Shown: positions 50,493 to 63,040 of the stretch, one piece after another
Layout: the number at the start of each line of letters is the position of its first letter
Position numbering within the stretch: the first letter of the stretch is position 1
Source: a bacterium GBS-1
GTDB taxonomy: Bacteria; Synergistota; GBS-1
Direction of reading: 5' to 3'
Assembly (NCBI GenBank): GCA_001443005.1
Contig: LEKQ01000001.1
Coordinates: forward strand, 392,792 to 456,791
DNA: 64,000 nt
Translations under genes and position numbers: made by a program
The notes under the pieces: generated by a model
What the model was told of the DNA's origin: nothing
What the model saw: the letters and a program-made list of their open reading frames with translations, nothing else
The model's database searches: none

Positions 50493-50511
50493 AATCTTGG
50501 AGGGGAGAAAA

Positions 50512-51369
50512 ATGAAAGAAAACAAGGTAGTGGACAGAGCTATATCCTTAGCGCGCGATCTTAAAGATAGAGCTCCTAAGCTATTTGGCATAGCTACAGG
50601 AGTAGATGGTTTAGACGATCTCTTCTTCACGGTTGATATAAAGGATGGAAAAGCCATAAAGAAAGCTCTGGGAGGATATCCTTTCAGAGCAGTAATAAAC
50701 CTGACAGGCATGCCAGATACGGGGAAATCATTAATGGCTGAACAATTCGCTATTAAACAAGCTTCTTTAGGATATCCCCCTTGCTTTGTAACTGTAGAGA
50801 CGCCCGCTCCCTTTTTAATCCAGGGGCTGAAGATGAGAGCTAACGCTATGGGAGTGAACTGGGAAGAGATAGAAGATAGAATAGTCTTGATTGACGCAGC
50901 AAGCTACGAGATACTGAGAGAAGACCTTCCCAGTTTGCTAAATACCTTAGAGAGGGCGATAGAGGAGTATGAAATTAAATCGGTCATAATTGACTCGATA
51001 ACCGGTCTTTACGAAGCTAAGGAAATGATGGCAAGGACAATAGTAAGAGAAGTATTTAGCTTCCTTAAAAGCCAAGGACAAACAGGATTGCTCATAAGTC
51101 AAAAAAGAAGCAGCCATGAAGCGGAATCAGCGGAAGCAGCAGGAGGCTACGCAGTAAGCCACATATGCGATGTTAATATGGTTACCGCGAAGAGGATCAT
51201 TCAAACTCAAAGGGATGAAAAGATATTCAGAAAACCGGTAGGATCACTGGTGAGGACTTTCAGGATAGACGGCTCAAGAATGTGCGGTCATGATACGGAT
51301 ACTCATATCCTTGAGATAACAGAACTTGGACTGGTGAGGATAGGGCCGAAAATAACCGAGGTTGAATAG
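50512..51369 (+). CDS. KaiC-domain (RecA-superfamily) ATPase, thermophile type
   Basis: The 285-residue product (ATG at 50512, GGAGGGGA five bases upstream) is a single RecA/KaiC domain: Walker A in LTGMPDTGKSLMAEQFA (~63-79), Walker B in EIKSVIIDSITGLYE (~158-172), and SQKRSS near 200. It is not the double-domain clock KaiC. As I recall, such proteins occur widely in archaea and in thermophilic bacteria next to a small partner, which is present 17 bases downstream. Function unknown; regulation or DNA/ATP-dependent signalling is possible. Confidence 0.85.
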   Translation: MKENKVVDRAISLARDLKDRAPKLFGIATGVDGLDDLFFTVDIKDGKAIKKALGGYPFRAVINLTGMPDTGKSLMAEQFAIKQASLGYPPCFVTVETPAPFLIQGLKMRANAMGVNWEEIEDRIVLIDAASYEILREDLPSLLNTLERAIEEYEIKSVIIDSITGLYEAKEMMARTIVREVFSFLKSQGQTGLLISQKRSSHEAESAEAAGGYAVSHICDVNMVTAKRIIQTQRDEKIFRKPVGSLVRTFRIDGSRMCGHDTDTHILEITELGLVRIGPKITEVE

Positions 51370-51386
51370 GAGGAAGGTGAAAAAGA

Positions 51387-51746
51387 ATGGTAGAGGTCTT
51401 AAGACCTCAAGAGGAAAACTATGACGAACTTGCTCTTCAGCTCTTCTCAGAAGTCATAAAGGAACTTGGAGGACCTAAGAAAATGATCCAGTATAAGCAA
51501 CTAACGTGGCTCCCAAGTCTCATGGAAGCTTGTTACGTAATAGCGCTTCACGAAAAAGGTAAGAAAACCGCAGATGAAATAGCCTCACTATTGGGAATAA
51601 CTAAGGAAACCGTTAAAAGGATACTCTCCGCAGATCCAGAAGCGGTTAGAAAAAAGATTGAGGGAGAGGAGAAGGATATAAGCGTTCACACGGCGGGAGG
51701 TTTAGCAAAACTCGCCTGGGAAAAGAGAAAGAGTCAACGTCTATAA
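51387..51746 (+). CDS. Small HTH partner of the KaiC-like ATPase
   Basis: The 119-residue product contains a helix-turn-helix-like segment KTADEIASLLGITKETVKRI (~59-78) and a C-terminal SVHTAGGLAKLAWEKRK. It matches the probable regulatory protein described beside KaiC-domain ATPases of thermophiles. GGAGGAAGGTG precedes the ATG; the 17-base gap indicates cotranscription. It may bind DNA under control of the ATPase (inference). Its end overlaps trkH by 13 bp on the other strand. Confidence 0.8.
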   Translation: MVEVLRPQEENYDELALQLFSEVIKELGGPKKMIQYKQLTWLPSLMEACYVIALHEKGKKTADEIASLLGITKETVKRILSADPEAVRKKIEGEEKDISVHTAGGLAKLAWEKRKSQRL

Positions 51747-53176
51747 GTCTCGGGTAAGAATATAAGCAAAATAGCATGAAGCTCAAGTCTACCTGCTACC
51801 ATACAGAAGCTTAAAATCCATTTCGCTAAGGGGTGGAAGAAAGCATAGTTCTCAACGGGCCCAACTTTCCCTAAACCTGGTCCAATGTTCCCAAGGGTGG
51901 CTGCTACTGAAGCTATAGTGGTAACTAGATCATACCCCATAGAGGCTATGATAATCGAAGCGAAAACGAAAATTAAAATGTACATTACGAAGAAGGTTAA
52001 AACCGAACTTATCATGTCCGAGGGTAAGGCTTTACCGTTGAGCTTGATAGATATAATGGCCTCAGGATGAACCAATCTATAAAGCTCTCTCTTAAAGGAC
52101 TTAAGAAGAATCAATATTCTAACATGCTTTATGGCTCCACCAGTGGAACCAGCACATCCCCCGATAAACATAAGTATAAGTAAAAAATATTGAGCAAAGG
52201 GATGCCATAAAGAGTAATCAGTAGTCACATATCCCGTAGTTGTTAGTATAGAAACTACCTGAAAGGAAGCATATCTTAGGGCAGAAGATAAGCTATCATA
52301 GTTACCTCCAAAATATAAGAACAATGTGGTAAGAGCTATTCCGCCCCCAGCCAAAGTGGCATAAAATTTAAACTCCTCATCCTTAAGAAAGCCCCTTAAA
52401 TCCCCTTTCAAAGCTCTATAGTGAAGAGCAAAGTTTGCCCCAGCTATGAACATAAAAATAGTTACCACTACTTCAAAGTAGAGATTATTATACTGACCTA
52501 TACTTTTATTAAGCGGGGAAAAGCCTCCGGTGGCCACTGTTCCAAAAGTATGACATAGAGATTCATAGAAGCTCATCCCTCCCAAGTAAAGTAAAAGGAC
52601 CTCCGTGGCTGAAACTATGAAGTAAACTTCCCAAAGTATCTTCGCTGTTTCTCTGACACGTGGCTTTATCTTCTCTGAAATAGGACCAGGAACCTCTGCC
52701 TTAAATAGATACATTCCTCCAACCCCTAAGGCAGGAAGCACAGCCAACGAAAGAACTATTATCCCCATGCCACCAAGCCAATGGGTAAAATCTCGCCAGA
52801 AAAGGATTCCCTTAGGCAGAGACTCGATATCCTTGAGTATGCTTGCTCCCGTAGTCGTAAAACCAGACATAGACTCAAAGAAACAATCAACAAATTGGGA
52901 GAAGAAACCACTGAAGTAGTAGGGAAGAGCACCCAAAGCAGCACAACCCAACCAACCAAAGGCAACTACACCAAACCCCTCCTTAGGGGTAAACTCTTCT
53001 TCCTTATCCCCTAATAGTATCAAAAGACCGCCCAGTGCTAAAGATATAAGTATCGCTTTAACAAAAGGGAAAATATTTTCATTAAAATAAAATGACCAGA
53101 GTAGCGATGGAATCATAGATAAACCCAAGAGGAAAAACAACCACCCCACGGGGTAGGCAACTATCTTGAAGCGCAA
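51734..53176 (-). CDS. trkH: Potassium uptake channel subunit TrkH/KtrB
   Basis: Ion-conducting subunit, 480 residues with four pore repeats. Selectivity-filter segments: SMSGFTTTGASIL (~103-115), TFGTVATGGFSP (~207-218), SILTTTGYVTTDY (~308-320) and ATLGNIGPGLGKV (~432-444); GGCAGSTGGAIKHVR (~341-355) is typical of TrkH. TTG start. It is the last gene of the TPR-cdaA-cdaR-glmM-trkA-trkH operon, two bases after trkA. Confidence 0.94.
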   Translation of the reverse strand: MRFKIVAYPVGWLFFLLGLSMIPSLLWSFYFNENIFPFVKAILISLALGGLLILLGDKEEEFTPKEGFGVVAFGWLGCAALGALPYYFSGFFSQFVDCFFESMSGFTTTGASILKDIESLPKGILFWRDFTHWLGGMGIIVLSLAVLPALGVGGMYLFKAEVPGPISEKIKPRVRETAKILWEVYFIVSATEVLLLYLGGMSFYESLCHTFGTVATGGFSPLNKSIGQYNNLYFEVVVTIFMFIAGANFALHYRALKGDLRGFLKDEEFKFYATLAGGGIALTTLFLYFGGNYDSLSSALRYASFQVVSILTTTGYVTTDYSLWHPFAQYFLLILMFIGGCAGSTGGAIKHVRILILLKSFKRELYRLVHPEAIISIKLNGKALPSDMISSVLTFFVMYILIFVFASIIIASMGYDLVTTIASVAATLGNIGPGLGKVGPVENYAFFHPLAKWILSFCMVAGRLELHAILLIFLPETYRR

Positions 53177-53178
53177 GC

Positions 53179-54537
53179 CTAGCTCTCACTCCCTTCAGAG
53201 AACCATTCTTGAACTTCCCTTAAGGCCTCACCCATGAGAAAAACTATAGCCTCATCTCCTTCAAGAAGGTGGGTATCTCCACGAGGTATTATAACCTCAT
53301 CCCCCCTTACCACTGCTCCAACGAGAAGCCTCTCAGGAAGAGAAAGCTCGCGAAGCCTGCCTCGGGTTATCATAGATCCCCTTCCAACCCTAACATCAAC
53401 AACTCTAACATCAGCCTCCTCTATCAAAGAGATCGACAAAACATCCTCACGCCAAAAGTGCCTAAGGATAGTGCTAGCTGTTGCAAGTCGTGGATTCACT
53501 ATCGCATCTATCTTCTCAAGGTAGTCCACGAGCCTCACATAATCGGATTTTTTAACCAGGGCTATACCCTTCCTTGCCCCTTGACTTTTAGCTAGAAGCA
53601 CCGAAAGCAAGTTAACCTCATCATTCTGAGTTAGGGCCACAAAACCATCTACATCCGAAACTCCCTCCCTCCTAAGAAGAGAGAGATCCGTCCCGTCACC
53701 CTTTATAACTAGGCTTGCCGATAGTTCCCTTGAAAGCTCTTCACACTTTTCTTGACTCTTGCTTATTATCTTTATATTTGAAATCCCGGCACTCTCGAGG
53801 TCCTTAGCGAGCCACTGAGTTATCTCCCCACCCCCAATCAACATGACCCTTTTAGGCTTCCTCCACTCAGCGCCAAGATAAAGAGCCAACCTATAAAGAT
53901 CCTCCTTCCTACCTACTACAAAAACCTTGTCTCCCACTTCTATTTTGTCCCTACCATGTGGAACAAACATCTCCCCCTTACGCAAAATTCCAACTATCAA
54001 AAAGGTGCCATCGATCTCTTGAGCCATATCAACCAAACTCTTGCCTACAGCTGGAGCACCATTCATAACCTTAAGGAGATAAACCATAATTCTACCCGAG
54101 GCAAATTCCATAACTTGAGAGGCTGGTGGTACCTGAAGGAGGTGGAATATTTCAGAAGCCACAACTCTAGTTGGATTTATAATTAAATCTACACCCATCT
54201 TCCGCGCAATTACATCCGTCGGTTCATCCATCCGCATCTCCTGAATTCTCGCTATAACCTTCTTAACCCCAAACTGCTTAGCTATAAGACAGGCAACTAT
54301 ATTCGTCTCATCGCTATCGGTAACCGCTATAAGCATATCCGCTAACTCTATCTTCGCTTCCTCAAGGGTATGTATATGAGAACCACTACCCTTAACTACA
54401 AGAACGTCAAGCTCGTCTTCTATCTCCGATGCTTTTCTCTCATCTTTCTCTATAACTACCACATCGTGCCCCTCATTGGAAAGAACCTTAGATAGATTAA
54501 AGCCCACCTCACCAGCCCCAACTATTATAACCCTCAT
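53179..54537 (-). CDS. trkA: Trk potassium uptake regulatory protein TrkA
   Basis: Cytoplasmic gating subunit of 452 residues with two RCK units. First NAD-binding fold VIIVGAGEVGFNLSKVL (~3-19), then an RCK_C domain (~140-220); second fold VMLIGGGEITQWLAKDLES (~231-249) and second RCK_C domain (~370-450). RCK_C domains of several K+ transporters bind c-di-AMP, and this gene sits in the same operon as the diadenylate cyclase, so such control is plausible here. Confidence 0.94.
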   Translation of the reverse strand: MRVIIVGAGEVGFNLSKVLSNEGHDVVVIEKDERKASEIEDELDVLVVKGSGSHIHTLEEAKIELADMLIAVTDSDETNIVACLIAKQFGVKKVIARIQEMRMDEPTDVIARKMGVDLIINPTRVVASEIFHLLQVPPASQVMEFASGRIMVYLLKVMNGAPAVGKSLVDMAQEIDGTFLIVGILRKGEMFVPHGRDKIEVGDKVFVVGRKEDLYRLALYLGAEWRKPKRVMLIGGGEITQWLAKDLESAGISNIKIISKSQEKCEELSRELSASLVIKGDGTDLSLLRREGVSDVDGFVALTQNDEVNLLSVLLAKSQGARKGIALVKKSDYVRLVDYLEKIDAIVNPRLATASTILRHFWREDVLSISLIEEADVRVVDVRVGRGSMITRGRLRELSLPERLLVGAVVRGDEVIIPRGDTHLLEGDEAIVFLMGEALREVQEWFSEGSES

Positions 54538-54540
54538 AGC

Positions 54541-55851
54541 TCAAGCATCTCCCTCATCGACGGATTTAATAACCTGGACCAGCCTCTTACCTATAGAATC
54601 AACCAACATAGGGTCTTTACCCTCAACCATTACTCTCATAACGGGTTCAGTACCTGAGGGCCTTAGAATAACTCTGACGCTCCTTTTCCATGCTTCCAAG
54701 ATCTTATCCACCTCCTCCTTAAGCAAGGAAGATGAGGAAACCTTTTCTTTATCTTTTACCCTGACGTTCCAAATCCTTTGGGGGTAGCGAGGAAAGCTAT
54801 CTATATAGTGCTCAAGACTCTCGCCAAAGCTCAGGACCTTTAAAGCCGTAACCATTCCATCCCCTGTATACACCTCAGGTCTAAAAATAATATGCCCTGA
54901 GGGTTCTCCCCCAAGGGGTAAATCCCTTTTCTTCATCTCCTCATAAACCCGTCTATCACCAACAGGAACCCTCAAAAGCCCTATCTTCATTGAGGATAGA
55001 ACCTCTTCAAGACCGAGATTGCTCATAATAGTTCCCACAACTGCTCTAGGTCTGATCTCAGAGGCCGAAAGATAAAGTATTATATCTCCATCAGCCACTT
55101 TACCCCGAGAATCAACCATTATAACCCTATCTCCATCCCCATCGAAGGCAAAACCGATATAAGCTTCTTCCCTAACCACTGCCGAAATTAACTCACCCGT
55201 AGAAGTAGAGCCAACTCCAGCATTTATGTTTATCCCATCAGGCTCACAACCAACCCTTATAACCTCCGCCCCTAACTCCTCAAATACAGCTGGAGCTATA
55301 TCAAAGAGAGCACCATTTGCAGCATCCACCACCACCTTCAATCCATTAAGTTTTACACCCTTAGCTACCTTCAGAAGGTAAGGTATATAGTAATCCTTAG
55401 GGTTTACCTTATGAAGTTTACCTACATAAATACCCGTCGGCAAAACCCAATCCTCATCAAGCACTTTCTCTATGGCTGATTCCTCATCCGAAGATAGTTT
55501 CTCTCCAAGAAAATTAAAGAATTTCACGCCATTGTATTCATAGGGATTATGAGATGCTGAGACGACCGCTCCCCCATCAGCCCTTAGCTCTCTAACAAGG
55601 AAAGAAACACCAGGAGTGGATAGGATTCCAACATCGATAACATCGCAACCTGAAGAGAGTAAGCCAGATATAAGAGCTGATGTCAAACTATCACCACTTA
55701 TTCTCGTATCTCTACCAACCACGACAACCGGCCTTTCCTTACCCCCCTTAAGCAAAAAACCATAAGCTCGTCCAAGCTTTAAAACTATCTCGGGTCTCAT
55801 GTTTCCAATATTAGCAATATCTCTAACCCCATCTGTTCCAAATAAGGCCAC
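54541..55851 (-). CDS. glmM: Phosphoglucosamine mutase
   Basis: Converts glucosamine-6-P to glucosamine-1-P for peptidoglycan precursors. The 436-residue product starts FGTDGVRDIAN, has the active-site phosphoserine in VVSASHNPYEYNGVKFF (~95-111), the Mg-binding FAFDGDGDRVI (~232-242), the sugar loop GGEPSGHII (~314-322) and phosphate loop RPSGTEPVMRVM (~396-407). GTG start. It follows cdaR by three bases in the cdaA-cdaR-glmM order common in Gram-positives and others. GlmM also inhibits CdaA in some bacteria. Confidence 0.95.
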   Translation of the reverse strand: MALFGTDGVRDIANIGNMRPEIVLKLGRAYGFLLKGGKERPVVVVGRDTRISGDSLTSALISGLLSSGCDVIDVGILSTPGVSFLVRELRADGGAVVSASHNPYEYNGVKFFNFLGEKLSSDEESAIEKVLDEDWVLPTGIYVGKLHKVNPKDYYIPYLLKVAKGVKLNGLKVVVDAANGALFDIAPAVFEELGAEVIRVGCEPDGININAGVGSTSTGELISAVVREEAYIGFAFDGDGDRVIMVDSRGKVADGDIILYLSASEIRPRAVVGTIMSNLGLEEVLSSMKIGLLRVPVGDRRVYEEMKKRDLPLGGEPSGHIIFRPEVYTGDGMVTALKVLSFGESLEHYIDSFPRYPQRIWNVRVKDKEKVSSSSLLKEEVDKILEAWKRSVRVILRPSGTEPVMRVMVEGKDPMLVDSIGKRLVQVIKSVDEGDA

Positions 55852-55854
55852 TTT

Positions 55855-57078
55855 TTACCCTCCCTCCTTAACTACAGAAACCTTCACAACTTCAGGACTA
55901 ACCGAGACTATCTCTACACCTGGAGGTGCAGAAACCTCCACGGGAAGCATCGCCTCCTTATTCTCCAAACCTGAAAGGTTTAAGGAGACCAAGATGTCTT
56001 GAGCGCTAAGCGAACTTACCCTTCTAAAAGGTCCTTTGACCCTAACCTTAACATGAGGGGGAGAAATCTTCCACTTTAAGAAGACGCTACTACCTGTGAC
56101 CTTCACCGGCACAAGATACTCCCTTTCCAACACTTTCTCTCTAAGCTCAACTATAACCCTAACGCTGCTTTTCTCCAAGAATTTAGTCCTTTCGTCAGGA
56201 GGAGAAATGTTTACCTCAAAGACGTTCGTCCTATCGAGATTAGAAACGTCTATTGGGGGGGTTAAGATCTCATCTATATTTTCAAGAACTGATGATGGTC
56301 CCATCAAGGTTATATGCGACGGTATGGCTTCAACGGAAGCTATATCAAAAGCCTCAGCAGGCTTCCCCATCACATTCACCTTTATCCTAACTATCTTTGT
56401 AGGCCAACCCGGCTTCAAAGATACCGCCAACTTAACTCTCGATGGAAGTATAGATATATCCGAGGAGGAGCGAGGCTCGGTACCGCCCTCTATCCTAACC
56501 TCTGAGAAGGTCTCAAAGTCCGATGAAACTCCACTAACATCAAGGGTAACAAAAGCGTAAGAGATCTTATCCAACAAATCCTTTGGTCCCCTAACAACGA
56601 CACTCTTAGGGATAACCTTTACCTCATTAAGCAAAAAACCTTCCGCTGGACTACCTATGGTTAAAACCCTCACAGGGATCTCCTTATCCGCTAACTCCCT
56701 AATAGATACCACAATGAAAGGTGGTTTAACCCTGACGACCTGAACGCCTGAAGGAACAAGAGTTTGAACCTGCAGCCTATATACGCCTGGCTTAAGCCCA
56801 GAAAGCTCCAAAAAAGCTTCCACATCCTTAGGGGTTATCTCTCCTACGAGGTTCTTGCTCCCCTTGAGACTCACCTCAACAGTGTTAACATCCTGCTCTA
56901 TCAAGACTTTCTCCGGGGGATTCTTTACCTTCACGGGGATCTCCAAGATTCTCTCTATAGCCTGAGGACCTTCTACCCAAACCGTGTAATACCAAAAAAC
57001 AACCGATAAAATTAAAGAAAGCAAGCCTAAAAAGACCCTGCTTTCAAAAACTCGCCAGATCTTATCCAACGCGTTCAC
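55855..57078 (-). CDS. cdaR: CdaA regulator CdaR (YbbR-domain protein)
   Basis: Membrane-anchored extracytoplasmic protein of 407 residues: one N-terminal span (~13-30, VFLGLLSLILSVVFWYYTVW) followed by about four YbbR repeats, each with a strand pattern like IPVKVKNPPEKVLIEQDVNT. In other bacteria it modulates the diadenylate cyclase next to it. It overlaps cdaA by 17 bp. GTG start; a TTG nine bases in is an alternative. Confidence 0.88.
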   Translation of the reverse strand: MNALDKIWRVFESRVFLGLLSLILSVVFWYYTVWVEGPQAIERILEIPVKVKNPPEKVLIEQDVNTVEVSLKGSKNLVGEITPKDVEAFLELSGLKPGVYRLQVQTLVPSGVQVVRVKPPFIVVSIRELADKEIPVRVLTIGSPAEGFLLNEVKVIPKSVVVRGPKDLLDKISYAFVTLDVSGVSSDFETFSEVRIEGGTEPRSSSDISILPSRVKLAVSLKPGWPTKIVRIKVNVMGKPAEAFDIASVEAIPSHITLMGPSSVLENIDEILTPPIDVSNLDRTNVFEVNISPPDERTKFLEKSSVRVIVELREKVLEREYLVPVKVTGSSVFLKWKISPPHVKVRVKGPFRRVSSLSAQDILVSLNLSGLENKEAMLPVEVSAPPGVEIVSVSPEVVKVSVVKEGG

Positions 57079-57859
57079 CCCTAAGCCAAACTAAAAACTC
57101 GCTCCAAAAGCTACCTTTCTGCCGCACAAAATAGTATCTCTCTAAAATCCTTCTTAATGCTTCCTCTTCAAGGTTTCTAACCAACCTACCATTTACAGCC
57201 AAAGATACCTCTCCCCTCTCCTCCGAAACAACTATTATCCACGCATCGGTAACCTCACTCAGCCCAACAGCTGCCCTATGACGCGTACCCAAACGCCTAT
57301 CAAGGTCTCTATCAGAAAGCGGTAAGAAACAACCTGCCGCTATTATCTTATCCCCCTTTACTATAATAGCCCCATCATGCAAGGGGCTCTTAGGGTTAAA
57401 TATCGAGAGTATAAGTTCTGCTGAGATTTCAGCGTTCACCTTTACAGCCTTCTCCCAAAAATCTTTCAAACTACTTTTACGCTCAAAAACAATTATAGCA
57501 CCGATTCTACCCTCCTTAAGCGATGTAATAGCAATGAAAAGCTCGCTCACTATCTGGGCTTCCCTACGAGAGAAAGTCCTGCTAGTCTCCCAAAAACCGC
57601 CACCTAAACCCTCTAACCCTCGCCTTAACTCCGGCTGAAAAACTATGGGTATGACTATAAAGGAAAGGCTTATAACCCTTTCGAGAAAATAACTTATGGC
57701 GTGAAGACCTAAAAATTTGGCCACCCCATTTAGGAGAAATATCAAAAGAAGCCCCTTAACAAGCTGAAAGGCTCTTGTCCCTCTAAGAAAAAGCAAAACT
57801 CTGTATATTATGTAAGCTATTATTATAATGTCAGCTAAGTCCTGCCATCTAAGGGGCAT
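57062..57859 (-). CDS. cdaA: Diadenylate cyclase CdaA (DisA_N domain)
   Basis: Makes the second messenger c-di-AMP from two ATP. The 265-residue product has three N-terminal membrane segments (~7-85) and the catalytic domain with SPLHDGAIIVKGDKI (~157-171, DGA motif) and RRLGTRHRAAVGLSEVTDAW (~188-207, RHR motif). C-terminal tail EERGEVSLAVNGRL is family typical. ATG start, overlapping the TPR gene by 11 bp. Confidence 0.94.
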   Translation of the reverse strand: MPLRWQDLADIIIIAYIIYRVLLFLRGTRAFQLVKGLLLIFLLNGVAKFLGLHAISYFLERVISLSFIVIPIVFQPELRRGLEGLGGGFWETSRTFSRREAQIVSELFIAITSLKEGRIGAIIVFERKSSLKDFWEKAVKVNAEISAELILSIFNPKSPLHDGAIIVKGDKIIAAGCFLPLSDRDLDRRLGTRHRAAVGLSEVTDAWIIVVSEERGEVSLAVNGRLVRNLEEEALRRILERYYFVRQKGSFWSEFLVWLRGERVG

Positions 57860-59330
57860 TTCCCTTTCTCTCCTCCTCCTCGATTTCCCTTAAAGCTCTT
57901 AAAGCTTCCTCATCGTTCGGATGAATCTTCAAAACCTTATTCCACTCGAGCTTAGCCTCTTCAAGCATACCCCTCTTCATATATCCCCTTGCAAGAAGCC
58001 TGTGAGTCTCAACATGCTCTGGTCTAACCTTAAGGTCAAACTTCAGAGAAGGGGGTTCTGAAACGGAAAGCTTGCTCAAGGCTTCCAAAGCCTCCTTATC
58101 ATCCGGATTTATATCTAATACGCTCCTCCAACAGCTCTGAGCATCAACGAACCTCCCCTGACTTTGATAGAGCTTGGCAAGCTGCTTTAAAATTTCAAGA
58201 TTCTTAGGCTCCTTACGAGAGAGATCCTCAAGCACAGAAATCGCCCTATCAGGCTCACCACTCCTAACGTAACTTAAGGAAAGGAGAAGAAGCATATCTC
58301 TATCATCAAACCCCTCCTTCAAGGCTTCTTCAAGAACGGCAACGGCGCTCTTAAACCTTTCCATAAAGATATAGCTTTTGGCTAGAATGTTATAAAGCTC
58401 ACGCTCACTAAATCCCAAGCCCCTCGCTCTCTCAAGGTGATCGATCGCCTGTTTATAGTCCTCGGTCCTATAGTAGTATTCTCCCATCAGATAATAGAGC
58501 TCCCCGTCTTCAAAACCAAGCTTCAGGGCCTTTTGCGACTCTTGAAAAGCTGCATCCCAAGCACCTTCCTCGGCGTAAGCTTTCGCTAACTTCAAGTGCA
58601 GGTCTTTCCTTTCTGGAGCTAGCTCTAACGCCTTCTTCCAAGACATAAGCGCCTTTAGCCACAATCCCTTACCTGCATAAGAATCCCCAAGAAAAACATG
58701 GGCATCTATATCCTGAGGATTCAACCTTAAGACGTCTCTCCAGATATCAACTGCACGAGAATAAAGTCTCTTCTCCATGTATAATAAACCCAGGTTAACC
58801 CGTGCTCCATAATGATCAGGATCAACCCTAACTGCCTCTTCCAGCTTCCCTATCGCCTCATCTATCAATCCCTGCCTCAGCAAGACTACAGCCAGATCAT
58901 TATAGGCATCAGCATTGCGAGGGTTCATTTCTATAACTTTCCTATAGCAAACTATCGCCTCCTCAAAGTTTCCCATCTCATCGTATATGTAACCTAAGCT
59001 CCACCAAGCTCTATCAAGCTCAGGTTTCAACTCTATAGCTTTCTTAAGTTCCCTTAAGGCTTCCTCCCTTCTACCCAAGCGATATAGTATCTCCCCCAAT
59101 AAGCTCCTTGCTTCAGCGAAATAGGGATCTATAAAAACCGCCTTTTCCACTTCTCTCTTAGCATCTTCGATGCTACCAAGCTCGAAGAAAGCTAAACCCA
59201 ATTTATACCTATACTCGCTATTCTTAGGGTCGATGCGAACAAGCGCTTTACCAACGGAAATCGCCTTAGCCCAATCTTTCCTTTCGATTAAACTGAGAAA
59301 CTCACTCGCAAGCTTGTCCTTTTCCTCCAA
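57849..59330 (-). CDS. Tetratricopeptide-repeat protein
   Basis: From the TTG at 59330 (GGAGGGA six bases upstream; an earlier TTG sits before that site) the product has 493 residues, almost entirely TPR units of 34 residues (for example AIVCYRKVIEMNPRNADAYN and AVDIWRDVLRLNPQDIDAHV), about thirteen in all. No signal or membrane span, so a cytoplasmic scaffold. First gene of the c-di-AMP/Trk operon, overlapping cdaA. Its partner could be CdaA, CdaR or the envelope machinery; nothing in sequence decides. Confidence 0.88.
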   Translation of the reverse strand: MEEKDKLASEFLSLIERKDWAKAISVGKALVRIDPKNSEYRYKLGLAFFELGSIEDAKREVEKAVFIDPYFAEARSLLGEILYRLGRREEALRELKKAIELKPELDRAWWSLGYIYDEMGNFEEAIVCYRKVIEMNPRNADAYNDLAVVLLRQGLIDEAIGKLEEAVRVDPDHYGARVNLGLLYMEKRLYSRAVDIWRDVLRLNPQDIDAHVFLGDSYAGKGLWLKALMSWKKALELAPERKDLHLKLAKAYAEEGAWDAAFQESQKALKLGFEDGELYYLMGEYYYRTEDYKQAIDHLERARGLGFSERELYNILAKSYIFMERFKSAVAVLEEALKEGFDDRDMLLLLSLSYVRSGEPDRAISVLEDLSRKEPKNLEILKQLAKLYQSQGRFVDAQSCWRSVLDINPDDKEALEALSKLSVSEPPSLKFDLKVRPEHVETHRLLARGYMKRGMLEEAKLEWNKVLKIHPNDEEALRALREIEEEERKGNAP

Positions 59331-59353: not shown

Positions 59354-59392
59354 AAGCAGCCCAAGGAATAAAAAATATCCCTTGAGCTGCTT
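59354..59392 (-). terminator. Terminator after nhaC
   Basis: Imperfect inverted repeat (arm AAGCAGCCCAAGG 59354-59366; complement 59380-59392 with one mismatch) beginning nine bases after the nhaC stop, followed on the minus strand by TAGTTTATTTTGG. It separates nhaC from the TPR operon, although partial read-through is possible since no separate TPR promoter is seen downstream of it. Confidence 0.7.
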
Positions 59393-59400
59393 TAGATGAA

Positions 59401-61005
59401 TCAATTTAAAGAAATCTTCTCCTCGGGCTTAAACTCCAAAGATCCAATGTCTGTAGGCTTTCCAAAAAGAAACACAATGGCCAGCAAAGCTCCCCATATC
59501 ATTAACAAGCAGATAACAGGATTCAAACCATAGCCTGCTGGGATATAACCTAATAGCGCAGCCACAACCGCTACGGTTAAAGCATAAGGAAGTTGAGTGC
59601 TAACATGATCCATATGATCGCACACGGAAGCCATGGAAGACATTATGGTCGTATCTGAAATTGGAGAACAGTGATCCCCAAAAACAGCTCCAGTGAGTAC
59701 AGCTCCTATCGTCGCTATCATAGAAGCATTCAAAGCATGGGCCAAAGGTATAGCAAGAGGCATAAGTATTCCCATCGTTCCCCAGGAAGTTCCTGTAGCG
59801 AAGGAAACAAAGATCGCAACCAAGAAAACGACAAAGGGAACAATCTGAGGGGATAAAACCCCTTTAGATAGATTGATTATGTACTCAGCAGTTTTAACAT
59901 CGTCGCAAACGCCTTTGATCGACCAAGCAAGGGTAAGTATCATCACAGCTATTATCAAGCTCTTCGCCCCATCAACCCACGCCTCGAAGGCTTGCGAGAG
60001 CGTAAGTATCCTTTGCGAAACTGCCATTATTATGGCAACAGCGCTCGTAGCGAATGAAGACCAGATAAGCGCCAAAGATGCATCCGCGTTACCTATAGCT
60101 TCACGAATCCCCGTAAAGGTTAAGGGCTTCTCCATACCCCCACCGTTATACCACAAACCAACAAAGGTAGCTACTATCATGGTTAATATAGGAATCCAAG
60201 CATTAATCGCCCTCACAGGTTTACCCTCAGGAACGTAAAGCTTTGTTAACTCAGAAGAAGCTAAGGGCTTTGCATCATCCCTTAAAAGCTTACCCGTTGT
60301 CCTTGCCCTGACCTCAGCGTGATACATGGGACCGTAATCTCTCCCGAGCAAGATTATGAAGAGAACCATCACCACCGCGCTCAGACAATAAAACCTATAG
60401 GGAATGCTCTTTAAGAAGACAAGATAGGCATTTTCCTGAATACCAAGTTTCTCGAAAGCCTGCTGAATCAAACCCAGCTCATAACCTATCCATGTCGATA
60501 CTATAGCCCAACTAGCCACGGGGGATGAGGTTGAATCAACTATATAGGAGAGCTTCTCACGAGAAACCCTCAAACTATCGGTAAGAGGCCTCATAGTATT
60601 GCCTACTAGAAGGGTATTAGCATAATCATCAAAAAACACTATAAGTCCCATAAGCCATGAGAAAAACTGCGCTCCCTTGGGCGTTTTAGCCCTCTTGGCT
60701 AAGCTCTGAGCTATCGCTAAAGTTCCTCCGCTCCTACTCATCACCCCTACTGCACCAGCTAAAGTCATGGAAAATATTATAACAGCCATATTCCAGGTCC
60801 CACCATCCTTAGGAACTAAAGCCCTCAACACATAGGTATCGAAGGTGGAAAAGAAACCATTCCACGGATTCCAACCGGCTACCATGGTTGCCCCGATCCA
60901 TATCCCCACGAAGAGGGAAAACAAAACCTCCTTAGTTAAGAAACAGAGAACTATCGCCACCAGTGGCGGGAGTAACGATAGGAAACCATAGGGATGGGCT
61001 TCCAT
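59401..61005 (-). CDS. nhaC: NhaC-family Na+/H+ antiporter
   Basis: The 534-residue membrane protein has about twelve spans and NhaC-family motifs: FFDDYANTLLVGNTMRPLTD (~119-138), STSSPVASWAIVSTWIGYEL (~153-172), FATGTSWGTMGILMPLAIPL (~392-411) and GDHCSPISDTTIMSSMAS (~434-451). Relatives exchange sodium for protons, or malate/lactate or amino acids. Located downstream of ornithine racemase and argF genes, it might instead move ornithine, arginine or a related amino acid. GAAAGGAGG precedes the ATG. Confidence 0.88.
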   Translation of the reverse strand: MEAHPYGFLSLLPPLVAIVLCFLTKEVLFSLFVGIWIGATMVAGWNPWNGFFSTFDTYVLRALVPKDGGTWNMAVIIFSMTLAGAVGVMSRSGGTLAIAQSLAKRAKTPKGAQFFSWLMGLIVFFDDYANTLLVGNTMRPLTDSLRVSREKLSYIVDSTSSPVASWAIVSTWIGYELGLIQQAFEKLGIQENAYLVFLKSIPYRFYCLSAVVMVLFIILLGRDYGPMYHAEVRARTTGKLLRDDAKPLASSELTKLYVPEGKPVRAINAWIPILTMIVATFVGLWYNGGGMEKPLTFTGIREAIGNADASLALIWSSFATSAVAIIMAVSQRILTLSQAFEAWVDGAKSLIIAVMILTLAWSIKGVCDDVKTAEYIINLSKGVLSPQIVPFVVFLVAIFVSFATGTSWGTMGILMPLAIPLAHALNASMIATIGAVLTGAVFGDHCSPISDTTIMSSMASVCDHMDHVSTQLPYALTVAVVAALLGYIPAGYGLNPVICLLMIWGALLAIVFLFGKPTDIGSLEFKPEEKISLN

Positions 61006-61031: not shown

Positions 61032-62099
61032 TCAGCTAAAAAAAACCTTGCTCACATAAGGAGAAGTGGAAGCCATTAACATTGCGCCATAGCTAAGCTC
61101 GAAACTTATAATGTCCCCAACCTTAAGCGGATTAGGAAAGTCCGTCACATCTACTACAGTATGATCACTCGATCCCCCTAAGACCTCAATACCATCAGCC
61201 TGAGGAAATAACCCATCGATAATCACATCCTGTTTACCCAAGGCCAATATGGCCCTCCTTCTCACCCCCTTATCCACGAATTGGGGTTTCTTTCCAAAAG
61301 CATCAACACCTATCTCACCGATAGGAACGGAAGGCTTGAACTTCAGCTCTACTATCTCAGCCTTAAGTAAAAAGGTATCTTGCCTCAGATAAGGAATCTT
61401 CCTCTCTCTCGTAGCATCCCTTCCGAGAAGAATAGCTTCGCCTATCCTAAGTTGATTAACCCCCTCAGGCATAACCCCATTTTCAAGCAGAAATAAAGCT
61501 ACCGTTCCTCCGATTGAAACTATAGGAACATCAAAGTGGGTATACTCTCGGGCTAAGGAAGCATAATCTACAAGCATGGATACCGATTCTGGTGTAGGTA
61601 AAACTCCACCAAAGCAACCAAAGTTGGCTCCAACCCCCCAAAGCTCCACATTCTTAAGCCCCTTGATCAAGTCAAGGTAGGAAAGCAAGTTAGTCGGCCA
61701 AACGCCTTCTCTCAAATCCCCCATATCTATCATAAGTACGACCCTAAAACGTTTCCCAAGCTTACCAGCCTCATAATCTATCGCCTTTATAACGCTTATC
61801 TCGCTAACCAAGGCCACATCAACTAACTCAACCACGTCTTTAACTTCTGAAAGCATAGGAATCCTTAAAAGCATAATAGGGCCAGCGATACCAGCCTTTC
61901 TGAGCTTCTTAACATTTTGAATTCGCGAATCCCCAAGAAACCTAACCCCTGCATCCATTAAAGCTATAGCTACTTCTGGAAAGGCAGAACATCCTTTAAC
62001 CACAGCAACGAGGTCTATACCCTTAGAGCTACAGAGGTCTAAAACCTTATAGGCATTGTCTTTTATCTTTTCAAGGTATACCTCTAAAAGAGGATACAT
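61032..62099 (-). CDS. orr: Alanine/ornithine racemase family PLP enzyme
   Basis: Fold-type III PLP enzyme of 355 residues (ATG at 62099; a TTG overlapping the argF stop is an alternative, and neither has a strong ribosome site). N-terminal YPLLEVYLEKIKDNAYKVLD and the PLP lysine in GIDLVAVVKGCSAFPEVA (~28-45), later VLMIDMGDLREGVWP (~122-136) and GVNQLRIGEAILLG (~213-226). This is the branch with ornithine racemase. Next to ornithine carbamoyltransferase, D/L-ornithine interconversion is likely. Confidence 0.82.
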   Translation of the reverse strand: MYPLLEVYLEKIKDNAYKVLDLCSSKGIDLVAVVKGCSAFPEVAIALMDAGVRFLGDSRIQNVKKLRKAGIAGPIMLLRIPMLSEVKDVVELVDVALVSEISVIKAIDYEAGKLGKRFRVVLMIDMGDLREGVWPTNLLSYLDLIKGLKNVELWGVGANFGCFGGVLPTPESVSMLVDYASLAREYTHFDVPIVSIGGTVALFLLENGVMPEGVNQLRIGEAILLGRDATRERKIPYLRQDTFLLKAEIVELKFKPSVPIGEIGVDAFGKKPQFVDKGVRRRAILALGKQDVIIDGLFPQADGIEVLGGSSDHTVVDVTDFPNPLKVGDIISFELSYGAMLMASTSPYVSKVFFS

Positions 62100-62101
62100 G
62101 C

Positions 62102-63040
62102 TCAAATAACTATAAGAGCCAATATTGCTTTATGGGCATGAAGTCTGTTTTCAGCCTCATCGAAAACTACCGAGTTGGGCCCATCCATGACATCATCGGT
62201 TATCTCCTCTCCCCTATGAGCGGGTAAACAGTGCATAACTATAACATCTTCCTTAGCCAAGGAGACGAGCTCATTATTAACCCTATAAGGCTCAAATATT
62301 TTCATTCTTTCAGCCTTTTCAGCTTCTTGGCCCATGCTAACCCAAACATCGGTGTATAAGATATCTGCACCTCTAACCGCTTCCTTAGGATCGCTTAAAA
62401 TCTCTATCTTAGATCCGCTTCTTTTAGCAAACTCCTTAGCTTTATCTAAAACATCCTTCTCAGGATAATAACCCTTAGGAGAGCAAATAGTTATATCCAT
62501 CCCCATTATGGTGGAGCCATAAAGCAGGGAGTGAGCCATGTTGTTTGCCCCATCACCTACGAAGACAAGTTTAAGTCCCTCAAACTTGCCTTTCTTCTCC
62601 CATATTGTTAGAAGATCACCAAGCACCTGCGTTGGATGATATTTATCGGAAAGACCATTTATAACGGGTACAGAGGAAAATCGAGCGAGCTCCTCAACCG
62701 TGGAGTGAGAGTAAACCCTCGCCATTATACAATCAACGTAGCGAGACAAAACCCTAGCAGTATCCGCCACCGTCTCTCCCCTACCAAGTTGAAGATCGTT
62801 TTTGCTAAGATAAAGAGCATGCCCTCCAAGCTGAAGCATAGCTACCTCAAAGGATACCCTGGTCCGCGTAGATGGCTTCTCAAAGATCATGGCAAGTGTT
62901 TTACCAGCGAGAAGCGGAGGAAACTCCCCCCTTTTAGCCTTAAGCTTTAGATCCTTAGCGGTCTCAAGTAAGGTCTCTATCTCCTCCCTCGTAAAATCCG
63001 CTAACGTCAAAAAGTGCCTACCCTTTAACTTGCAGACCAT
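62102..63040 (-). CDS. argF: Ornithine carbamoyltransferase
   Basis: Transfers carbamoyl phosphate to ornithine (or the reverse in arginine fermentation), 312 residues. Motifs: carbamoyl-phosphate site [12 protein letters not shown] (~54-65), [19 protein letters not shown] (~84-102), [11 protein letters not shown] (~135-145), [12 protein letters not shown] (~230-241) and the ornithine-site cysteine in [12 protein letters not shown] (~268-279). AAGGAGG precedes the ATG. Followed directly by the racemase and nhaC, pointing to catabolic use. Confidence 0.95.

Follow-up and report, generated by a model that had tools for sequence, protein, structure and literature searches.

Control of potassium by c-di-AMP has been well studied in Firmicutes, where the cyclase and the potassium importer are encoded apart. 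The Firmicutes operon cdaA-cdaR-glmM corresponds, gene for gene and in gene order, to the core of the row of genes described here, and in representatives of other families of Synergistota this core mostly lies within the arrangement nfo-orr-cdaA-cdaR-glmM-galU-glmS. Our row comes from a window (the whole stretch of DNA that was analysed) of 64,000 nucleotides, taken from a genome, placed by its relatives in the phylum Synergistota, that comprises 1.81 Mb on 15 contigs, is 98.5% complete, and was searched by family. The row is a lineage-specific variant of the known operon. Our preferred reading, to which we give a probability of roughly 0.55, is that the widespread cdaA-cdaR-glmM operon has here received two lineage-specific additions, a TPR-repeat gene ahead and trkA-trkH behind, which couple the expression of c-di-AMP synthesis and of potassium import. 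A lineage that links cyclase and importer by gene order would provide a natural test of the need for their co-expression.

Profile searches of the window gave six intact open reading frames on the minus strand, in the transcription order TPR, cdaA, cdaR, glmM, trkA, trkH, and bear out what the first-pass annotation had said of the genes, their shared direction, and the gaps and overlaps between them. The first gene (57849-59330) encodes a soluble protein of around 493 residues with 28 predicted helices, matched by Pfam TPR families. Its start is better placed at the TTG at 59330, which is preceded by GGAGG, although an alternative TTG 15 bp upstream also opens the frame. There follow cdaA (57062-57859), for a membrane diadenylate cyclase (TIGR00159 at 236 bits, cut-off 188.8; PF02457 and CdaA_N) with both the DGA and the RHR catalytic motifs; cdaR (55855-57078), for a YbbR-domain regulator of CdaA matched by PF07949 in four stretches; and glmM (54541-55851), for phosphoglucosamine mutase (TIGR01455 at 475 bits, cut-off 447.55). 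A CdaA-type DAC protein with an N-terminal membrane domain, a YbbR-type CdaR and a GlmM are all present, on one strand and in operon order. The last two genes are trkA (53179-54537), for a gating subunit with the domain order RCK_N-RCK_C-RCK_N-RCK_C (NF007039 at 458 bits, cut-off 293), and trkH (51734-53176), for the potassium-translocating subunit (PF02386 at 251 bits); two RCK_N-RCK_C units in TrkA, together with TrkH, identify a two-RCK TrkAH uptake system. In transcription order the junctions measure -11 (TPR/cdaA), -17 (cdaA/cdaR), +3, +3 and +2 bp. Close packing is the norm in the window, where the distance is no more than 20 bp for 34 of 50 pairs of same-strand neighbours (median gap 4.5), so five consecutive tight junctions are unremarkable by themselves. 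The real evidence for the row is its conservation, not its spacing.

The family of the window genome, here called f1, includes three further genomes, G001 (L112), G002 (L113) and G003 (L114). In G001 and G002 the order TPR-cdaA-cdaR-glmM-trkA-trkH is identical to that of the window, and in G003 it matches up to a contig end inside trkA, so that the row is kept across three genera (g1, g2 and g3). Protein identity to the window ranges from 60% for CdaR (60-68% among the relatives) up to 81% for CdaA, and recurrence in related genera at such distances indicates that the row is more than chance. When the positions of cdaA, TrkH and TrkA were compared across the 57 Synergistota genomes searched outside f1, no cdaA-trkH linkage nearer than around 27 kb was seen. 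No trkA or trkH was found beside cdaA in 36 non-Synergistota cdaA loci, a small sample with flanks of varying length that does not amount to a survey, and the literature searched contained no report of a cdaA-trk gene order or of a TPR partner of CdaA. The physical tie of cyclase to transporter, proposed from the window by itself, is thus conserved in one family as far as trkAH is concerned, while its TPR-cdaA-cdaR portion extends to two families and the 57 other genomes of the phylum are without the trkAH linkage. We also observed a loose, large-scale synteny in many other Synergistota, where KtrB-type genes recur at distances of around 27-53 kb from cdaA. Two sequence irregularities were seen in the relatives: in G001, trkH (L112:4322-5763) is broken into a pair of overlapping frames, through either a frameshift or a fault of assembly, and the CdaA of G003 (L114:2966-3754) carries DGG where the catalytic DGA motif is expected.

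The second family to carry the TPR gene before cdaA is represented by G005, whose TPR protein is 32% identical to that of the window; within f1, an orthologue lies immediately upstream of cdaA in all three other genomes. In G005 one contig carries argF-TPR (L111:2-2190) and another carries TPR-cdaA-cdaR (L196:924-3194); identity between the two copies of TPR is 95%. Its trkA-trkH pair sits elsewhere, between murJ-like and type III pantothenate kinase-like genes (both named by eye). On this distribution, if f1 and G005 inherited the TPR-cdaA link from a common ancestor, the link is older than the trkAH addition: the TPR gene joined cdaA first and trkAH followed later in one lineage. From the older conserved link, we consider it most likely that the TPR protein contacts CdaA or the partners of CdaA. 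The further proposal that TPR-CdaA contact may tune synthesis takes gene order as its basis. An AlphaFold2 model of the protein forms a TPR superhelix (pLDDT 92), with which a fold search returned generic TPR superhelices, mostly eukaryotic, and no functional clue; the ‘scaffold’ role suggested in the first-pass annotation is a guess from the fold.

The cyclase itself offers a second perspective on the TPR protein. In B. subtilis CdaA, residue R126 is needed for inhibition by GlmM (PMC8573169). We placed this position by our own residue count on the PDB sequence, with which some residue numbers in PMC8573169 disagree, and on that count the aligned residue (117 of the window CdaA) is G in the window, S, S and T in the f1 relatives, and Q in G005. 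Of 36 non-Synergistota CdaA proteins, 33 have K or R there, while Q or H predominates among other Synergistota. Inhibition of CdaA by GlmM may therefore differ in Synergistota, to the extent that the uncertain numbering permits. It is possible, though we hold this only tentatively, that the functional coupling in the row is that between TPR protein and CdaA, a cytosolic TPR regulator of the cyclase replacing or supplementing GlmM, and that trkAH is incidental. The persistence of TPR-cdaA-cdaR in both families, as genes that overlap or abut and whose products are 31-47% identical, speaks for such a coupling, as does the G, S, T or Q at the R126-aligned position. However, TPR proteins have many partners, the residue count is partly inconsistent with the published numbering, and the absence of R or K at this position extends to most other Synergistota, in which no TPR gene lies before cdaA.

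For the trkAH addition, a tree of TrkA proteins places f1 and G005 in one group (support 100/100) against all other Synergistota sequences, with a long-branch warning. This grouping fits the relocation of a resident trkAH pair in the ancestor of f1, and a foreign origin of the pair is disfavoured, under the same warning. Relocation need not have had a functional reason. Given that genes are tightly packed throughout the window and that the upstream genes argF-orr-nhaC are also syntenic in f1, the linkage of trk may be a recent one of no consequence for function: a resident pair would have moved behind glmM in the family ancestor and been retained through little elapsed time in a compact genome. 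Confinement of the linkage to one family agrees with this account, and so does the broken trkH frame of G001, which reflects either an assembly error or an importer that is dispensable there, a second KtrB-type pair being present. Yet all five junctions have stayed tight in three genera whose CdaR proteins are just 60-68% identical, whereas the genes immediately past trkH have been rearranged between the same genera: a kaiC-HTH pair lies there in the window and in G001, and a TRAP transporter follows immediately in G002. On balance we find neutral linkage rather doubtful, and we retain functional coupling of synthesis and import as the preferred reading. The kaiC-HTH pair of the window (50497-51746), a thermo_KaiC_2-type ATPase gene and a small HTH gene that are absent from this place in G002, is convergent with trkH and overlaps it by around 13 bp.

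Co-expression of the row depends on the extent of its transcription unit. Upstream of the TPR gene, also on the minus strand, are genes for an NhaC-family antiporter (59401-61005; PF03553), which is found upstream in L112, L113 and L114 as well and is not clearly in the operon, and for an orr-like alanine/ornithine racemase (61032-62105; NF040742 at 414.6 bits), an orthologue of which adjoins cdaA in most of the other Synergistota inspected. A terminator-like hairpin (59354-59392, minus strand), with a 17-pair stem followed by a T-rich tail, separates nhaC from the TPR gene. Hairpins of unrelated sequence occupy the same position in G002 (L113) and G003 (L114), which suggests that it is the hairpin structure that matters; G001 has no such hairpin, and there a PH-like gene, which scores slightly below the Pfam cut-off, overlaps both nhaC and TPR. 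With the hairpin where it is, an ordinary promoter would hardly fit ahead of the TPR gene, and no convincing promoter was found between hairpin and gene. Transcription may start inside nhaC, or may depend on read-through. A strong hairpin with no clear promoter behind it makes the upstream edge of the unit uncertain; the hairpin stands before the row and not within it, and the six genes probably form one transcription unit.

We then consider whether c-di-AMP acts directly on the importer, as the first-pass annotation had predicted for TrkA. A signature for c-di-AMP-binding RCK_C domains, (I/L)(I/L)x2DxRx5N(I/L)(I/L), is given in PMC10117811 (citing Schrecker 2019), and scores here refer to the form printed there. 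On this measure S. aureus KtrA scores 7/7 and B. subtilis KtrA 5/7, while RCK_C1 and RCK_C2 of the window TrkA each reach at most 3/7, which is the commonest score of shuffled sequence; RCK_C1 of the G001 TrkA reaches 4/7. Aligned in register with the quoted signature, RCK_C1 has A in place of D, E in place of R, and F or L, depending on gap placement, in place of N. In sequence matches to the PDB, RCK_C1 meets the KtrA-c-di-AMP structure 4XTT at E=1.5 only, and RCK_C2 groups with the TrkA proteins of T. maritima and Vibrio. The AlphaFold2 model of the whole protein (pLDDT 89) matches Vibrio TrkA 4g65/4j9v with TM 0.88-0.89. Neither RCK_C thus carries the KtrA/KhtT-type signature, and the prediction fails in that form: with the signature absent, a canonical Vibrio fold and a poor match to 4XTT, KtrA-type binding of c-di-AMP by TrkA is unlikely, and we rejected it as a candidate on the signature and the structure-library matches. 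TrkA is most likely a canonical nucleotide-gated (ATP/ADP) subunit that does not bind c-di-AMP directly. As a separate observation, every complete f1 TrkA protein, that of the window (53179-54537) included, has S-K in place of the acidic residue at the end of the second strand of RCK_N2, a change that suggests altered nucleotide binding by the second RCK unit.

A version of the prediction that would survive these results places the ligand at a site of another type, for example a CpaA-like one in RCK_C1, so that TrkA binds c-di-AMP and closes TrkH, and the operon forms a self-contained feedback loop. c-di-AMP is known to bind RCK_C proteins and to inhibit potassium import in Firmicutes (PMC5919688, PMC12453120). 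The closest PDB match of RCK_C1 is the RCK_C domain of the c-di-AMP binder CpaA (5F29, E=8.8e-5, with VPHG in common), and PHG is present in 3/3 complete f1 TrkA proteins compared with 1/27 of those from other Synergistota. However, the match to CpaA covers only a short stretch and is weak, RCK_C2 groups with the TrkA proteins of T. maritima and Vibrio as described, the window TrkA scores no better than shuffled sequence for the signature as quoted (4/7 in the G001 relative), and the S. mitis ‘TrkA’ that binds c-di-AMP is of another type, with a single RCK in 221 residues. CpaA-type binding by RCK_C1 is therefore weakly supported, and we judge a feedback loop of this sort unlikely. Most improbable of all would be a full potassium homeostat, in which CdaA is under cytosolic regulation by the TPR protein, and its product c-di-AMP gates the adjacent TrkA through the CpaA-like site; were it true, c-di-AMP would control a TrkA of the two-RCK type, and the TPR protein would represent a new class of CdaA regulator. 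In short, direct control of the gating protein of the importer by c-di-AMP is not supported by these comparisons.

A c-di-AMP system does exist in the organism, judging from its gene content: cdaA encodes the sole DAC domain in the genome, and one PgpH-type phosphodiesterase is encoded elsewhere, the single DHH match resembling RecJ. The genome has one TrkH/KtrB-type gene, the trkH of the row, and family searches found no Kup or KdpA, so TrkAH is the only potassium importer found among the TrkH, Kup and KdpA families. Three Pfam RCK_C domains are encoded: besides the pair in TrkA there is one in an RCK potassium channel, whose gene lies on contig C14 (L175:200-1168). The RCK_C of the channel (IEELDLRRKTGCFII) scores 5/7 for the signature as quoted, with D and R kept, a score reached in around 1.5% of shuffles, and it meets 4XTT at E=1.3e-7. 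It also matches the channels GsuK and MthK, neither of which is, to our knowledge, a c-di-AMP binder. An orthologue is present in G002; a short RCK and KtrB-type pair stands in place of the channel in G001, and in the incomplete genome G003 no such channel was seen and a KtrA-like protein has an RCK_C that matches KtrC and 4XTT. Should any potassium protein of this organism be a target of c-di-AMP, the RCK_C of the channel would be a better candidate than TrkA. A ydaO (c-di-AMP) riboswitch was ruled out as a link, as none was found in the window or in any f1 genome; one was found in G019.

Overall, we picture the row as built in two steps, with the TPR gene in front, cytosolic in product and common to two Synergistota families, and trkA-trkH behind, in f1 only. 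Co-transcription would set the capacity for c-di-AMP synthesis and the capacity for potassium import together, and the c-di-AMP made would in turn exert a homeostatic restraint on potassium uptake. Two points are the most useful of those that are new. The older link between TPR and cdaA offers a candidate cyclase regulator where the GlmM contact seems weakened, and the signature test makes the RCK potassium channel, in place of TrkA, the protein on which the ligand question now centres.

Finally, we compare the row with the systems closest to it. Relative to the Firmicutes operon, it has a TPR gene before the core and trkA-trkH after it, and the Arg position for GlmM inhibition is apparently not kept. 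The Synergistota arrangement has in common with f1 both orr and the cdaA-cdaR-glmM core, but in f1 orr is separated from cdaA by nhaC and the TPR gene, and trkAH replaces galU-glmS. The c-di-AMP-controlled importers KtrAB/KtrCD and streptococcal TrkA/CabP likewise pair an RCK subunit with a membrane subunit of TrkH/KtrB type; however, these have single-RCK subunits and a cyclase encoded elsewhere, and KtrA has the signature, whereas here a two-RCK TrkA is without it. In the Vibrio TrkA-TrkH structures (4j9u, 6v4j-6v4l), whose ligands are ATP, ADP or analogues of these and not c-di-AMP, TrkA has the same fold and domain order (TM 0.88-0.89), and differs from the window protein in that the second strand of its RCK_N2 ends on an acidic residue and not on S-K.
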